Below the pieces are notes generated by a model that made no database searches, was not told where the DNA came from, and saw only the letters and a program-made list of their open reading frames with translations. A stretch of 48,276 nt of DNA. Origin: Actinomycetota bacterium. Lineage in GTDB: Bacteria; Actinomycetota; Acidimicrobiia; Acidimicrobiales; MedAcidi-G1. The position numbers and the translations under genes are program-made. The stretch lies in the NCBI GenBank assembly GCA_014381745.1, contig JACNLA010000036.1:14821-63096 (forward strand), written 5' to 3'. This document shows, piece after piece, positions 24,778 to 31,783 of this stretch. Every line of letters begins with the position of its first letter. Positions within the stretch are counted from its first letter, which is position 1.

Positions 24778-27700
24778 TCAGCTGGAGGCCATGGCTCGGG
24801 TTCGGCTCAGGACACGGCTGGCAGCAATGCGCTCACTAACCACCTTGGATGAGCCACCCGGTGCCATCGAGACGCCGTAGAGGCAGTCGGCTGCCTCCAT
24901 GGTGCGCTTCTGGTGGCTGACGATAAGCAACTGTGCGTCATCGCGGAAGCAGTCGACAAGGCCCAGGAAGCGGTGGAGGTTCACGTCGTCGAGAGCGGCC
25001 TCGACCTCGTCCATGACGTAGAACGGCGACGGCCGGCTACGGAACACGGCGAACAGGAACGCCAGCGCCGTGAGGGACCGCTCACCGCCAGACAACAGGG
25101 ACAGCTTCTTCACGTTCTTACCTGAGGGACGTGCCTCGATATCGAGGCCGGTCTCGAGCAGGTTGTCAGGGTTGATGAGCTTCAGGCGCCCCTGGCCTCC
25201 CGGGAAGAGCTGATCGAACAACTCGGTGAAGTGGGTGGAAACCTCGGCGAAGGCGGACCCGAACACGCTGACGATCTCCTCGTCGACTGACCGGATCACC
25301 TTGCGGAGCTCCTTGCGCGTGGAGCGGATGTCGTCAAGCTGCTCCTGGAGGAAGCTGCGGCGCTCCTCGAGCGCGTCGAACTCCTCGAGGGCCAGAGGGT
25401 TGATGGGACCCATCAACTTGAGCTCGCGTTCCAGCTCGACAACCCTCACCGAGGCACTCACACCGTCGGGCAGTTCCGGACAGGGCGAGTCCAAGATGGA
25501 GTCTGGCTCCCGGTCGAACTCGGACCTGACAGCCGCAGTCAGGTTCTCTAGACGGAGTCGCGTCTCGGCCCTCTCGATCTCGAGCCTCGATAGCTTCTCG
25601 CGGGCGCCTCGGAGTGCTGTCTCTGCGGAGGACCGGTCTCTCCTCAGCTCATCAAGGCGGGCGGCAATGCTGCGGACCCTCTCGGACTGGAGTCGGCGGC
25701 GCTCCCTCAGAGACTCGAGGCGGTCATCGACGGCGGCCATGCGCAGGTCGACAGCCGCAATGAGGCTGTTGGTGATCTCCTCGCGACGGTCCAGATCATC
25801 ACTTCTGCCGGCGGCTTCGAGCCTCTCGTCGGACAGGCGATCAAGGCGACCTGACAGGTCCGAGACCCTCGAACGGACCATTGCCATCCGACCGGAGACG
25901 TCGGCCGTACGTACCTCGTGTTCAGTTCTGCGGGCACCGACCTTCGCCGCACGTTCCTCCAGATCGCCGCGGAGGGTGGCCATACGGCGCCCGGCTTCGA
26001 GAGAGGCCTGTTCGGCCTGTTCAAGGTCGGGTAGCCGCGTCTCGAGGTCGGCTACACGGGCCGACTCGTCGGACAGACGCTGATCGAGCTCGCCGATGCG
26101 GCTTCGGAGGGCCTCGGTCTCGGCCCCCAGGTTCCGTTGCTCGGTCTGGATCCTGGCAAGGGCCTCAGCGGAGGTGGCAAACCTGTCGTCGTGGTCGTCT
26201 AGTTCACGTGACCTGCGTGCGATCTCGTCCTCGAGGGCGGCGGTTGTCTGCTCGGTGTTCCGGAAGGTGGCGGTCGCCTCCGAATGTGCCAACTCGGCAT
26301 CAACCAACCTGGCCTCGGCCTCGATCAGGGCCGCCCCTGTGGCTCCGCCGCCGCTGGTGCCGACCCTCCAGCCTGTCGAGCTGAAGCGATCGCCGTCGTT
26401 GGTGACCACCACGGCCTCGGGGTGTTCAAGCGCCGCATCTATGGCGGCCCGCGTACCACCGGCAACAAGCACGGCGTTCCCGAGGAGGCTGTCGAGCAGG
26501 TTCTCGACACCGGGCTCGGTGGCATGGACGTGGGCCCGTACCGGCTCACCGAAATCGGGTGTCGAAGCATGCGAGGAGCGTTCGTGGAGGGACAGAACCG
26601 CTGCCGTGAACTGCCCTGTCCTCAAAGCCTCGAGCGCCTCATGGGCCCGATCGACACCATCGACGATGACGGCATCGAGGGCCTCGCCGGCAGCCGCCCC
26701 GAAGGCGGCCTCAAAGCCCTCGTCCACCTCGACCAGGTCAAGCAGCGTTCCGAGCACACCCTCTACATCGGACAGGTGGGCTGCCCCGGCCCGGCAACGT
26801 GCCTCGTCGAGAGCCAGGCCCAGAGCCTCGACCCGCGCCCTGATGCTGCGAAGATCAGCCTCCGTGGCGACGACCTGTTCCCATGCGGCGTTGCGGTCCC
26901 TGGATGCGGCACCGGCACGCTGCTCGAGTTCGGCCATGGCATCGACCAACGGCTCCTCCGAGGTGGTTCCGGCCGACAGGTCTGAGCGCAGTCGATCTGA
27001 CTCGAGAGCAAGGACCGCCTCGGACTCGAGCGCTGAACTGAGCCGACTCTGGAACCTCTCGCGCTCGGCCCCAGCGTGGTCGACCGCCACACGTAGAACC
27101 CCCAGCTCGCCCCTCACCTCGGCGGCATGGCCACCAATGGCCGGGATTCCGTCTGCCCAGTCAATCTCGAAGCCAGCCCGATCAGCCGCCAACTCGGTTT
27201 CGGCCAGAGCAAGCTGCTCAGCCTCGGGTGCGAGGGCCTCGGACTCGTCATCGAGTTGGCTCATCTCGGCCTGGGCTCTGGCCAACTCGGCCTCGAGACC
27301 CACGACAACCTGCTGGGAGGCAAACAGCCCGCGGTCGCGCTCGATGCCCCTGAGGCGTTCCGAGAGAAGCGCACGCATGCCGCGCCCACGCTCCCGAAGT
27401 GCCTCGTATCGGGCCAGGCGGTCTCCCATGTCGTCTCCGCCGCGTGACGCCAACTCTGTCTCTGCTACGACCACCTCGGCGTCGAGGCGGCTCAGCGATG
27501 CCGCCTGACCGGTCTCCTCGGTTGCCAGGTCGGCCCTCCGGTTGGCCTCGTCGCCGGCCTGCCTGCGCAGGCGTGCCAGTTCCTGACCGGCCCGATGGAG
27601 ACGTAGGGCCGTCAACTCGCCCAGGAGGTCTCCATGGCGACGGGCGGCGTCGGCCTGCCGCTCGAGTGGGCGCAGTTGACGCCTGACCTCGCGCATCAGG

Positions 27701-28278
27701 TCGCCAAGACGGTCCACGTTGGCCTCGGTGGATCGCAGGCGCCGCTCGGCCTTCTCCTTGCGCTTGCGGTACTTGAGGATTCCCGCAGCGTCCTCGATGA
27801 TTGCCCGCCTGTCCTCGGGGCGGGCGTTCAGGACGGCGTCTATCTGACCCTGGGAGATGATCACGTGCTGCTGGCGTCCGACGCCCACGTCCGACAGGAG
27901 TTCCTGAATGTCGAGCAGGCGGCAGGGTGCACCGTTGATTGCGTAGTCGCTGTCGCCGCTGCGGAACAGGGTGCGGGTAATGGTCACCTCGGAGAACTCG
28001 ACCGGCAAGAGGCCCGAGCCGTTGTCTATTGTCAGCGAGACCTCGGCGCGGCCGAGGGCCGGCCTGGATGACGTTCCGGCGAAGATGACGTCGTCCATCT
28101 TCTGGGACCTGACGGCGCTCGGAGCCTGAGCACCGAGAACCCATGCGATGGCATCCACGACGTTGGACTTGCCGCTGCCGTTGGGTCCAACGACGACGGT
28201 TACGCCGGGCTCCATGTCGAGGGTCGCCGAGTCGGCGAAGGACTTGAACCCCTTGACGGTAAGACGCTTCAGAAACAC
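24778..28278 (-). CDS. smc: Chromosome segregation protein SMC
   Basis: Condensin ATPase that organises chromosome arms. Visible: Walker A VVGPNGSGKSNVVDAIAWVL near residues 30-48, long coiled coil, hinge about 505-650 (GVLGTLLDLVEVDEGFEAAF), second coiled coil, ABC signature SLLSGGERSLTALAFLFA and Walker B PFYVMDEVEAALDD. 1166 aa is full length. GTG start with TAGGGT 7 nt upstream and no separate SD. ScpA/ScpB partners are not in the window. In mycobacteria smc abuts ftsY; here three genes intervene. Confidence 0.97.
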   Translation of the reverse strand: MFLKRLTVKGFKSFADSATLDMEPGVTVVVGPNGSGKSNVVDAIAWVLGAQAPSAVRSQKMDDVIFAGTSSRPALGRAEVSLTIDNGSGLLPVEFSEVTITRTLFRSGDSDYAINGAPCRLLDIQELLSDVGVGRQQHVIISQGQIDAVLNARPEDRRAIIEDAAGILKYRKRKEKAERRLRSTEANVDRLGDLMREVRRQLRPLERQADAARRHGDLLGELTALRLHRAGQELARLRRQAGDEANRRADLATEETGQAASLSRLDAEVVVAETELASRGGDDMGDRLARYEALRERGRGMRALLSERLRGIERDRGLFASQQVVVGLEAELARAQAEMSQLDDESEALAPEAEQLALAETELAADRAGFEIDWADGIPAIGGHAAEVRGELGVLRVAVDHAGAERERFQSRLSSALESEAVLALESDRLRSDLSAGTTSEEPLVDAMAELEQRAGAASRDRNAAWEQVVATEADLRSIRARVEALGLALDEARCRAGAAHLSDVEGVLGTLLDLVEVDEGFEAAFGAAAGEALDAVIVDGVDRAHEALEALRTGQFTAAVLSLHERSSHASTPDFGEPVRAHVHATEPGVENLLDSLLGNAVLVAGGTRAAIDAALEHPEAVVVTNDGDRFSSTGWRVGTSGGGATGAALIEAEARLVDAELAHSEATATFRNTEQTTAALEDEIARRSRELDDHDDRFATSAEALARIQTEQRNLGAETEALRSRIGELDQRLSDESARVADLETRLPDLEQAEQASLEAGRRMATLRGDLEERAAKVGARRTEHEVRTADVSGRMAMVRSRVSDLSGRLDRLSDERLEAAGRSDDLDRREEITNSLIAAVDLRMAAVDDRLESLRERRRLQSERVRSIAARLDELRRDRSSAETALRGAREKLSRLEIERAETRLRLENLTAAVRSEFDREPDSILDSPCPELPDGVSASVRVVELERELKLMGPINPLALEEFDALEERRSFLQEQLDDIRSTRKELRKVIRSVDEEIVSVFGSAFAEVSTHFTELFDQLFPGGQGRLKLINPDNLLETGLDIEARPSGKNVKKLSLLSGGERSLTALAFLFAVFRSRPSPFYVMDEVEAALDDVNLHRFLGLVDCFRDDAQLLIVSHQKRTMEAADCLYGVSMAPGGSSKVVSERIAASRVLSRTRAMASS

Positions 28279-28409: not shown

Positions 28410-29252
28410 CTAGACCTGTGTGTCGCAGTAGTAGACCCAGCGGCCCTTCAGCTTGATGCGCTGGATAGGCGCCCTGCTCCTGGGGCTGAGCTCTCCGGCC
28501 CGCCCGTAGACAGCCAGATGGATCCCGAAATCTCCGTGTTCGCCGAATATGTCGACAAACGGACGGGCTTCGATGCTCGTGCCCCTGTACTTGATGGCGT
28601 CGTGGACGGTCTCGATGAGGGCCCTGTAGAACCGGCGGACCTCCTGGGTTGACAGGGAGTTGCTCATCCGGTCGTAGAGGAGGCCCGCGTGGAAGAGCAC
28701 CTCGTCGCTGTAGATGTCCCCCAGCCCGACGATCACAGAATCGTCTGTCAACAGGTTCTTCAACTCCATTTCACGGCCGAGGACCTGTCCGGCGAACACC
28801 GTCCACGAGATCGGCTCTCCCACCGGGTCGATTCCCAACTGGGCCAACTCTGGAACCTCGGCCATGAGGTCGTCTGCCGCTACGACGAAAACCTCGGAAC
28901 CGCCCTCTGGATCGATGAGGCAAAGGTGGCCCCCCTGGGTGAACGCAATCGTCAACTCGGTGCCCTTGGCTACAGCGGCACGAGCCGGAAGCCGCCGGAG
29001 AGAGGAACCCGGCCCCATCTTGATCACGAGCATGTCCTCGCCGTCGAGACCGATCAGCAGATGGAGGCCGATCCGACGAACGGAGTCCAACTTCCGGCCG
29101 GCCAGCCTGGCGGTGAACGACTTTCGGTTGCGATACCTCCCCAGCACCGCCATGGACTCGGCATCAGCCGACTTGATCTTGCGGCCTGAAATCTCGCGAT
29201 CCAGGTCACGTCGGATCGTCTCGATTTCGGGAAGTTCATACTCGACTGTCAC
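28410..29252 (-). CDS. Fpg/Nei-fold protein lacking catalytic residues (mutM position)
   Basis: 280 aa with the overall Fpg/MutM layout: YELPEIETIRRDL at the N terminus, VRRIGLHLLIGLDG, helix-two-turn-helix GLGDIYSDEVLFHAGL, and HLAVYGRAGE near the C terminus. Classical enzymes (PELPEVE start) use the N-terminal proline as nucleophile; here that position is Tyr5, after a four-residue extension. The catalytic lysine of RRGK is Leu63, the usual GNIYA asparagine is Asp179, and the C-terminal zinc finger keeps one cysteine (C276). It lies between rnc and smc, where actinobacteria carry mutM. GTG start overlaps the rnc stop (GTGA). Likely DNA- or RNA-binding rather than a base-excision enzyme of known type. 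Confidence 0.85.
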   Translation of the reverse strand: MTVEYELPEIETIRRDLDREISGRKIKSADAESMAVLGRYRNRKSFTARLAGRKLDSVRRIGLHLLIGLDGEDMLVIKMGPGSSLRRLPARAAVAKGTELTIAFTQGGHLCLIDPEGGSEVFVVAADDLMAEVPELAQLGIDPVGEPISWTVFAGQVLGREMELKNLLTDDSVIVGLGDIYSDEVLFHAGLLYDRMSNSLSTQEVRRFYRALIETVHDAIKYRGTSIEARPFVDIFGEHGDFGIHLAVYGRAGELSPRSRAPIQRIKLKGRWVYYCDTQV

Positions 29253-30040
29253 TGGCTCTCTCCGGTTGTGTCGTCTGCACTGGTGCCGTCCTCGGCGAGG
29301 AACGCGCATGCCATCTCCGCGGCGGCCTGCTCGGCCCGCTTCTTTGACGTTCCGACACCGGGCCCGAACGTCTTGCCGCCCACCTCCACGGTCGCAAGAA
29401 ACTGGCGGTCATGCTCCGGGCCGTCAAATGTGAGGCGGTACTCAGGCGCCTCACCTGAGCCCTGCGCCACCAACTCCTGTAGACGTGTCTTGAAATCGTG
29501 GTCGCCGGGGCTTAGGGACGCGACCCGTATCTGCTCAGCCATCAGGCCGTGGACCACATCGACAGCCCTGGCATGGCCGCCATCGAGGAACACGGCACCG
29601 ATCACCGCCTCCATTGCGTCGCAGAGGATTGAGGACTTGTCACGACCACCCGAGGCATCCTCACCGCGACCCAGTCGCAGAACGGTCCCCAACTTGATGG
29701 AACGTGCCGCATCGGCAAGTGCCTCCTCGCTGACGACAGCCGACCTGATCTTGGCGAGATCACCCTCGTCCTGGTCGGGCCGGGTGCGATAGACCTCGTC
29801 CGTAACTGCCAGGCCCAGCACCGAGTCCCCGAGAAACTCGAGTCGTTCGTTCGAATCACCTTCGTGCTCGGCGCACCAGGAGCGATGGGTGAGCGCCGTG
29901 GCCAAGAGATGAGGCTCGGAGAAGCGGTGTCCGAGCGACGTCTGGAAGGAGTCCAGTTCACCGGTTTCGGCGCCCTCATCGGGCTGCACACCGGTCGGAT
30001 GGTCGATGACCAGGATCTCAGCCGAGGCGGGAGACGACAT
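29249..30040 (-). CDS. rnc: Ribonuclease III
   Basis: Cleaves double-stranded RNA in rRNA maturation. Signature NERLEFLGDSVLGLAVTDEV, second acidic site CDAMEAVIGAVFLDGG, and a C-terminal dsRNA-binding domain (FKTRLQELVAQG, KTFGPGVGTSKKRAEQAAA). The start at ATG 30038-30040 gives 263 aa and overlaps acpP by 23 nt; I see no better one. Clustering with acpP and plsX is common. Confidence 0.94.
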   Translation of the reverse strand: MSSPASAEILVIDHPTGVQPDEGAETGELDSFQTSLGHRFSEPHLLATALTHRSWCAEHEGDSNERLEFLGDSVLGLAVTDEVYRTRPDQDEGDLAKIRSAVVSEEALADAARSIKLGTVLRLGRGEDASGGRDKSSILCDAMEAVIGAVFLDGGHARAVDVVHGLMAEQIRVASLSPGDHDFKTRLQELVAQGSGEAPEYRLTFDGPEHDRQFLATVEVGGKTFGPGVGTSKKRAEQAAAEMACAFLAEDGTSADDTTGESQ

Positions 30041-30275
30041 AGTCAACGGCGTCACGCACTGACCTGAGATCATCCAGGTCGTCGTCGTCGAATCGGAAGC
30101 CGATCGACCGCTCACTCAACTCCTCTTCGAGCGCCTCGACCAACTCGATCAACGCCAGAGAATCGGCGTTCAGGTCATCGGCGAAAGAGGCACCCTCGCT
30201 GATTGCGGTGGGTTCGATCTCGAGAATGTCGGCGAGTCGTTCCCGGATCATGCCGAGAACCTCGTCGCGCCCCAT
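30018..30275 (-). CDS. acpP: Acyl carrier protein
   Basis: Carries acyl chains on a 4'-phosphopantetheine arm in fatty-acid synthesis. The attachment motif is LNADSLALIELVEALEEE (S39). 85 aa from the ATG at 30273-30275, which has AAGG 8 nt upstream; a GTG at 30308 would add 11 residues. Between plsX and rnc. A possible -10 box (TAGAAT, 30352-30357) lies about 75 nt upstream. Confidence 0.93.
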   Translation of the reverse strand: MGRDEVLGMIRERLADILEIEPTAISEGASFADDLNADSLALIELVEALEEELSERSIGFRFDDDDLDDLRSVRDAVDYVVSRLG

Positions 30276-30351
30276 TGGGGTACCTTCTACATGGGTTTCT
30301 GCTGGCACCGGGGGCTCCTTGTCGCCATCTGCTGCGCTCGCGGCCGCCCGG

Positions 30352-30431: not shown

Positions 30432-31412
30432 TCAGCCGGAATCACCCACGGCCTCGGTCAGGTGACCGACCACGCCTGCCTCGACCATCTCAGCCGCCGC
30501 CCCTATGGCGTTCTTCATCGCCGTTGCACCGGTAGAGCCATGGCTGATAATGCAGACGCCCCTCACACCCAACAGCATCGCTCCCCCGTAGGTGTCGGGG
30601 TTGAACTGCGCGTAGAGGGCATCGAACTCGGGACCCAGAACCCCGGCAGCCTCGATTGCCTCGGGACGCCCGGACATGCTCGTGAGAAGCGCTGTCATGA
30701 GGGTCTTCATGCTTCCCTCCAGGGCCTTGAGGGCCACGTTGCCGGTGAACCCGTCGGTGACGACCACATCTGCCGCATCAGTGAGAAGATCCCTGCCCTC
30801 GACGTTCCCGATGAACACGCCCTGTCTGAAATCGGCACCATCCAGGGCCTCGTAGGCCTCCTTCACAAGCGGGCTTCCCTTGCTGGGCTCCTCGCCGATC
30901 GACAGCAACGCAACCCGTGGCATCTCGATTCCGAGACGATCCCTGGCAAAGACCGCCCCCATCTGTCCGAACTGCACGAGCCAGTCGGGGCTGCACTCGG
31001 AGTTGGCGCCGGCATCCAGCAGAACCGTTGGGGTGGTACCCGGAGCTGGAAGCAGCGTGGCGATGGCAGGGCGGGATACTCCCCGGATACGACCCATCCG
31101 GAGCAGGGCACTGGCCATCGTGGCCCCGGTGTTGCCTGCGCTGACCATGGCCGAGGCGGATCCGTCCCGCACCGCCTCGGCGGCACGGACGAGAGAGGAG
31201 TCCTTCATACGGCGGACGCTGGAGCCCGGCTCGGCATCCATGGCGATTACCTCAGATGCTGGCAGCACGGGAAGATCGCCGATGTCGCCCATCTCGTCGG
31301 GGCGACCCACGAGCAGGACAGGAATGCCATCGTCGGCGGCAAGGCGGGCGCCGGCCACGATCTCAGCAGGGGCGTTGTCGCCACCCATGGCGTCAACTGC
31401 AATTGGAAGCAT
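30432..31412 (-). CDS. plsX: Phosphate acyltransferase PlsX
   Basis: Converts acyl-ACP to acyl-phosphate for phospholipid synthesis. IAVDAMGGDNAPAEIVAGA start, VSAGNTGATMASALLRMGRI, LDAGANSECSP, VVTDGFTGNVALKALEG, FNPDTYGGAMLLGVRGVCII. 326 aa, typical. Between rpmF and acpP, as usual. Confidence 0.97.
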   Translation of the reverse strand: MLPIAVDAMGGDNAPAEIVAGARLAADDGIPVLLVGRPDEMGDIGDLPVLPASEVIAMDAEPGSSVRRMKDSSLVRAAEAVRDGSASAMVSAGNTGATMASALLRMGRIRGVSRPAIATLLPAPGTTPTVLLDAGANSECSPDWLVQFGQMGAVFARDRLGIEMPRVALLSIGEEPSKGSPLVKEAYEALDGADFRQGVFIGNVEGRDLLTDAADVVVTDGFTGNVALKALEGSMKTLMTALLTSMSGRPEAIEAAGVLGPEFDALYAQFNPDTYGGAMLLGVRGVCIISHGSTGATAMKNAIGAAAEMVEAGVVGHLTEAVGDSG

Positions 31413-31474: not shown

Positions 31475-31654
31475 TCAGTCGACCTCAACCGCCTGGCGCC
31501 CGGCGTACCACCCGCAGTTGCCGCACACCCGGTGGGGCCTCTTGGTGGCACCACACCGGTCGCATGCACTGCGCGCTGCGGTCCCGAGGGTCCAGGCTGC
31601 GGCCTTACGGCTGCGACCCTTTGCCTTGGATGTCTTCTTCTTGGGAACGGCCAT
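31475..31654 (-). CDS. rpmF: 50S ribosomal protein L32
   Basis: 59 aa from ATG 31652-31654: MAVPKKKTSKAKGRSRKAA, then a four-cysteine zinc ribbon (CDRC, CGNC), so this is the zinc-binding form. SD GAGGA upstream. In the common yceD-rpmF-plsX order. Confidence 0.96.
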   Translation of the reverse strand: MAVPKKKTSKAKGRSRKAAAWTLGTAARSACDRCGATKRPHRVCGNCGWYAGRQAVEVD

Positions 31655-31693
31655 CGTCGGTTCCTCGGCGAAAATCGGCGGTCTGAACGAAAT

Positions 31694-31712
31694 GTCAGGA
31701 TGCTCTCCTGAC
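31694..31712 (-). terminator. Hairpin in the yceD-rpmF interval
   Basis: Perfect 7-bp stem gtcagga / tcctgac with a 5-nt loop, followed on the minus strand by ATTTCGTTC. It stands 71 nt after the yceD stop and 39 nt before rpmF: a partial terminator or an L32 leader element. Confidence 0.5.
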
Positions 31713-31783
31713 GACCCGGCAAGGCTAGCGGGCAGACTGCGCAACCCGCACCAATCACCCGTTCAACCGGAGTCTCCCAGGCG

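Follow-up and report, generated by a model that had tools for sequence, protein, structure and literature searches.

A first shell of P2, E3, K60, N174 and R264 has been described for the Fpg/Nei family as a whole (PMC3188539). In Mycobacterium tuberculosis, the gene of the active Fpg1 follows rnc, and a further Fpg homologue without the N-terminal catalytic residues, Fpg2 (Rv0944), has been reported (PMC2734929). The gene considered here lies within a window of 48,276 nucleotides, this being the whole stretch of DNA that was analysed. Its product, referred to as the window protein, resembles the MutM/Fpg proteins of Geobacillus, E. coli and M. tuberculosis (Fpg1) in its fold, its H2TH domain and its rnc-adjacent locus, with about 30% identity to Geobacillus MutM. 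Nonetheless, it is without the nucleophilic proline, K60, N174, the intercalation triad and the zinc finger, and it is acidic instead of basic. The absence of N-terminal catalytic residues is shared with Fpg2, although the latter is truncated in M. tuberculosis, full length in other mycobacteria and not encoded at the rnc locus. Zincless-finger Fpg/Nei enzymes stay catalytic, unlike the window protein, in which the catalytic residues are absent. A hairpin without zinc ligands is the feature shared with that group, represented by NEIL1 and the plant/fungal Nei clade (PMC3188539). When the window protein was compared to RqcH_arch, the match was not significant (E 0.24). The NFACT-N domain of RqcH/NEMF is an Fpg-related fold that is non-catalytic, but it occurs in another domain architecture and at another locus. 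No description of a conserved pseudo-Fpg family was found in the literature searched, which did not extend to subscription literature.

The gene and its position in the operon

The Fpg-like gene occupies the minus strand, the plus-strand frame being broken by stops, and belongs to a cluster with the order rpmF-plsX-acpP-rnc-mutM-smc. A search for rnc-adjacent homologues, which had been proposed together with the original prediction, found them in related genomes with identical order and strand. The features of the locus are as follows.

28410..29252, minus strand: gene of an Fpg/MutM-fold pseudo-glycosylase of 280 aa, starting with GTG (ORF, Pfam, MutM-structure matches, alignment)
28569..28802, minus strand: H2TH helical domain (residues 151-228), where the inactive form is most conserved
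29238..29240, minus strand: Tyr5 codon at the site of the nucleophilic proline (alignment to Geobacillus MutM)
29064..29066, minus strand: Leu63 codon where Geobacillus MutM has its active-site lysine, K60 (alignment)
28716..28718, minus strand: Asp179 codon at the N174 site, H2TH hairpin (alignment)
28413..28496, minus strand: C-terminal hairpin with replaced zinc ligands, SPRS...YYCDTQV (alignment, locus comparison)
29249..29252, minus strand: GTGA overlap of the rnc stop and the pseudo-MutM start (sequence; also in L004 and L005)
29249..30115, minus strand: rnc (RNase III), upstream partner (longest ORF; true start probably later)
24778..28278, minus strand: smc, downstream neighbour (ORF list, locus comparison)
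30018..30308, minus strand: acpP, conserved neighbour (ORF list, locus comparison)
30432..31412, minus strand: plsX, conserved neighbour (ORF list, locus comparison)
31475..31744, minus strand: rpmF, conserved neighbour (ORF list, locus comparison)

The longest rnc ORF, starting at 30115, overlaps acpP by about 97 bases. On the plus strand, an open frame of 470 aa runs antisense to smc (26096-27508) and is most likely a high-GC artefact.

Both an N-terminal Fapy domain (Fapy_DNA_glyco, 5e-15) and an H2TH domain (2.2e-16) were detected by Pfam, and MutM crystal structures matched the protein over its whole length in a sequence search (5e-35). An AlphaFold model built from seven rows was confident for the N-terminal domain only and poor beyond residue 137; Foldseek on this model, including its low-confidence C-terminal half, still returned MutM. 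These matches place the window protein in the Fpg/Nei superfamily, as had been read from the sequence at the outset, and it is a true Fpg homologue. The NCBIfam fpg equivalog models gave 171/212 and 156/203 bits, both below the cut-off, and the Nei/Nei2 models gave 38/252 and 29/400 bits, which does not make it an endonuclease VIII. Its position between rnc and smc and its tree position among the rnc-locus copies identify it as the rnc-locus MutM orthologue. The original prediction of a conserved, non-catalytic Fpg paralogue is thus kept as to conservation and absence of catalysis, but the protein is better seen as the usual rnc-locus MutM orthologue, and the catalytic paralogue is a protein encoded elsewhere in the genome, here called Fpg-B. 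The predicted overlap with rnc is real; among the orthologue loci, 31 of the 118 inactive and none of the 59 catalytic ones show such a 4-base start-in-stop overlap. The adjacency to rnc is itself ancestral, the same rnc/smc synteny being shared by catalytic forms.

Loss of catalytic and lesion-reading residues

Residue numbering and losses were taken from an alignment of the window protein to Geobacillus MutM. The replacements P2 to Y5, K60 to L63 and N174 to D179 were observed, together with a zinc finger in which C249 and C252 have become S256 and S259, C269 is kept as C276 and the fourth cysteine is missing, all in agreement with what had been predicted. The extension preceding the proline column is also present, but it comprises three extra residues (M-T-V-E-Y compared to M-P) instead of the four originally given. 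Further losses, absent from the prediction, affect H74 (K78), M77 (P81), R112 (E116), F114 (G118) and Q166 (D171). The residues E3, E6, R57, G59, K160, G173, Y176 and D178 (Geobacillus numbering) are retained, with the catalytic glutamate E3 corresponding to E6 of the window protein, and the finger arginine R264 is found as R271, a site where only 57% of the inactive copies have a basic residue. Another true start placing Met-Pro at the N-terminus had been named as a way out; none exists, and in L008 an upstream start is excluded, a stop lying two codons before the homologous GTG. Since the N-terminal proline, K60, N174 and the four-cysteine zinc finger are all absent, the window protein should not, judged by its residues, be named a glycosylase, despite its Fpg fold and positional orthology.

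The replacements themselves vary among relatives. When the conservation of Y5, L63 and D179 was checked, as had been suggested, L63 held family-wide (the K60 site is Leu in all copies tabulated from family f1), Y5 was kept in the genus only, and the D179 site varied, with D, E or P elsewhere. It follows that no replacement residue has been selected across the clade. Catalytic positions differ freely between inactive families, and of the basic residues contacting DNA, R112 has become D or E in 38% and H74 in 32% of the inactive copies. The N-terminal extension is absent in 68 of 118 inactive loci and consists of three residues in f1, and f20 keeps Pro2. The only residues newly invariant across the inactive copies are H217 and Y274, which gives no sign of a new active site common to the clade. 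What is kept is the rest of the protein and no particular replacement residue. Net charge has also fallen, from +6.9 in catalytic to -0.6 in inactive copies, the window protein standing at -4 with a pI of 5.9.

Retention of the inactive copies and complementary distribution of Fpg-B

The first search returned a match in all 61 genomes, the named relatives being Acidimicrobiales MAGs such as Acidimicrobiaceae bacterium ARS1426; sampling was carried out within the class of the source genome, and many of the comparison genomes are draft assemblies. Operon copies in the order fall into a fully catalytic type, whose residue signature is nearly invariant, and a type stripped of most catalytic residues, with partial forms occurring in f6, f20, f24 and f3. 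The inactive copies come from more than 20 GTDB-coded families, are full length in every family sampled, and no internal stops were found among the listed hits of the operon protein. Their dN/dS ranges from 0.016 to 0.16 (28 close pairs) and is equal to or lower than that of rnc from the same loci in most comparable pairs, several rnc comparators (pN about 0.7) having been left out as non-overlapping partial matches. The frame is therefore intact and not decaying, as had been noted from the window; a recent pseudogene is ruled out by this dN/dS and by retention, and a frameshift or sequencing artefact by the recurrence of the same losses in independent genomes. In the order sample, all of the 110 genomes with Fpg-B except G223 gave a hit for the operon protein at 1e-20, and the locus is counted as kept in about 108 of them. 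One clear loss was detected, in G223, where the gene after rnc is phosphoglycerate-mutase-like and convergent (L287 1-936); G101 has a weak match to the operon protein only, and rnc was not found in that assembly.

The source genome carries a second, fully catalytic Fpg, the Fpg-B mentioned above (G000:C25, L001). It belongs to the Fpg family like the window protein and is of canonical length, but it retains every catalytic residue, shares about 25% identity with the window protein and lies away from rnc. Fpg-B was searched for in 248 genomes of the order, and a set of 177 genomes that also took in other orders of the class was classified by operon copy. In the latter set, an inactive operon copy occurs with Fpg-B in 87 genomes and a catalytic copy without it in 76; 14 genomes have an inactive copy without Fpg-B, and the combination of a catalytic copy with Fpg-B was never observed. 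P2, K60, N174 and the four cysteines are present in 62 of the 63 Fpg-B genes read, the exception being the G155 copy, which diverges most and carries Val in first position. The Fpg-B copies form one clade (support 99). Those of f36 (L314, L318, L327) have K160 changed to P or S and D178 to T with the catalytic residues kept, and the match in G142 (L152) shows a single in-frame TAG close to its end. The 14 genomes with an inactive copy but no Fpg-B include two of f23, a parallel case in which genomes with inactive rnc-locus copies (L220, L221) encode another canonical Fpg outside that locus (L230, L231). Among the others are genus g2 of f1 and f6, with Nei-like proteins only, and G067, whose operon copy differs at N174 alone; some of these cases may be assembly gaps.

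A neighbour tree was built from rnc, plsX, acpP, smc and rpmF. In this tree, the inactive state is found separately in f70, f14, f23, f63 and a core clade: f70, inactive with Fpg-B, stands beside its sister G351, catalytic without Fpg-B (support 100), and the inactive f14 genome G265 is nested in catalytic f14 (support 98). The independent contrasts amount to four concordant and no discordant cases (p about 0.125), too few for significance. In a tree of the Fpg proteins themselves, calculated without the catalytic columns, the inactive copies group together, nested within the catalytic ones. In the Fpg gene tree, most inactive copies form one group, inside which f70, f63 and G265 also fall. 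The number of independent losses is consequently uncertain and depends on the neighbour tree, and the grouping of f70, f63 and G265 could be due to long-branch attraction or gene transfer. In f7 (L064, L211, L215), a catalytic but distant Fpg is found at the rnc locus without Fpg-B, and by its neighbouring genes the family belongs within the inactive clade. This may be a replacement in place that restored activity.

A putative second role of MutM at the rnc locus

A three-way comparison of columns has shown that the inactive copies have lost those common to catalytic operon copies and Fpg-B, which correspond to the lesion and DNA interface. Sixteen columns are common to both operon forms and absent from Fpg-B, largely clustering in the H2TH helices, although they may partly reflect shared ancestry. 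They include D142, D170, 185, L191, 192, D194, L200, E204, R210, D234 and V248, with the window protein departing from such columns at 111, 185 and 192. Entropy of the H2TH domain is 1.22 in inactive and 1.08 in catalytic copies. From these data we infer, as the probable course of events, that an ancestral operon-borne MutM became a retained pseudo-glycosylase, and that a non-catalytic, probably protein-binding role preceded the loss of activity. MutM at the rnc locus would already have held this second role when another Fpg took over 8-oxoG repair, the active site of the operon copy would then have been free to decay, and the second role would have kept the gene, resulting in a conserved pseudo-glycosylase. 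It is possible, if tentative, that this role is one of protein binding or scaffolding through the H2TH domain (about 185-210, with D142, D170 and D234), and not base excision or lesion sensing. Protein binding is favoured over DNA or RNA binding on account of the operon-specific columns clustered in the H2TH domain, its near-equal conservation in the two forms and the fall in charge.

Several other explanations have been considered. The damage sensor originally suggested is disfavoured, as the M77/R112/F114 probe, the phosphate contacts and the positive charge have been lost. Non-catalytic binding of nucleic acid, DNA or RNA, by the H2TH domain, be it as a damage-site shield, as an SMC/chromosome factor or as a partner that binds RNA for RNase III, would agree with the preserved H2TH hairpin GxGxxY, K160, Y/F242 and R/K244, and with synteny to rnc and smc. 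However, that synteny is equally true of catalytic copies, N174 becomes D, E or P, and the basic residues contacting DNA are lost and often acidic in a protein whose charge has dropped as described, so that such a function seems unlikely. It is more doubtful still that the gene is a functionless, slowly decaying relic or is retained just for translation coupling in the operon. The freely varying catalytic positions, the overlap in a part of the inactive loci and the loss in G223 are what would be expected of it; against this stand a dN/dS not exceeding that of rnc in most comparable pairs, the full length in every family, and an overlap which is with the upstream gene and absent from most inactive families. 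That the protein is still an enzyme, its active site changed to use another nucleophile like NEIL3 with Val2, is very improbable: E3 is present in most members, the N-terminal extension is missing from some inactive families and Pro2 is kept in f20, but f1 carries its three extra residues, K60, N174, the intercalation residues and the zinc finger are gone as well, and the replacements differ among families.

The preferred reading, an older non-catalytic role, can be extended to the class as a whole. There seems to be about an even chance that, at the rnc-smc locus of Acidimicrobiia, MutM serves a second, non-catalytic function which is older than the loss of activity and which is exposed by repeated cover of 8-oxoguanine repair from another Fpg, the operon copy becoming a conserved pseudo-glycosylase on each occasion. 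The annotation as formamidopyrimidine-DNA glycosylase is often wrong for the rnc-locus gene in these organisms. Fpg/MutM is a textbook repair enzyme that has been treated as having a single job, and a selected, widespread inactive MutM makes a hidden second function testable, with the catalytic, partial and inactive operon copies offering a natural separation-of-function series.
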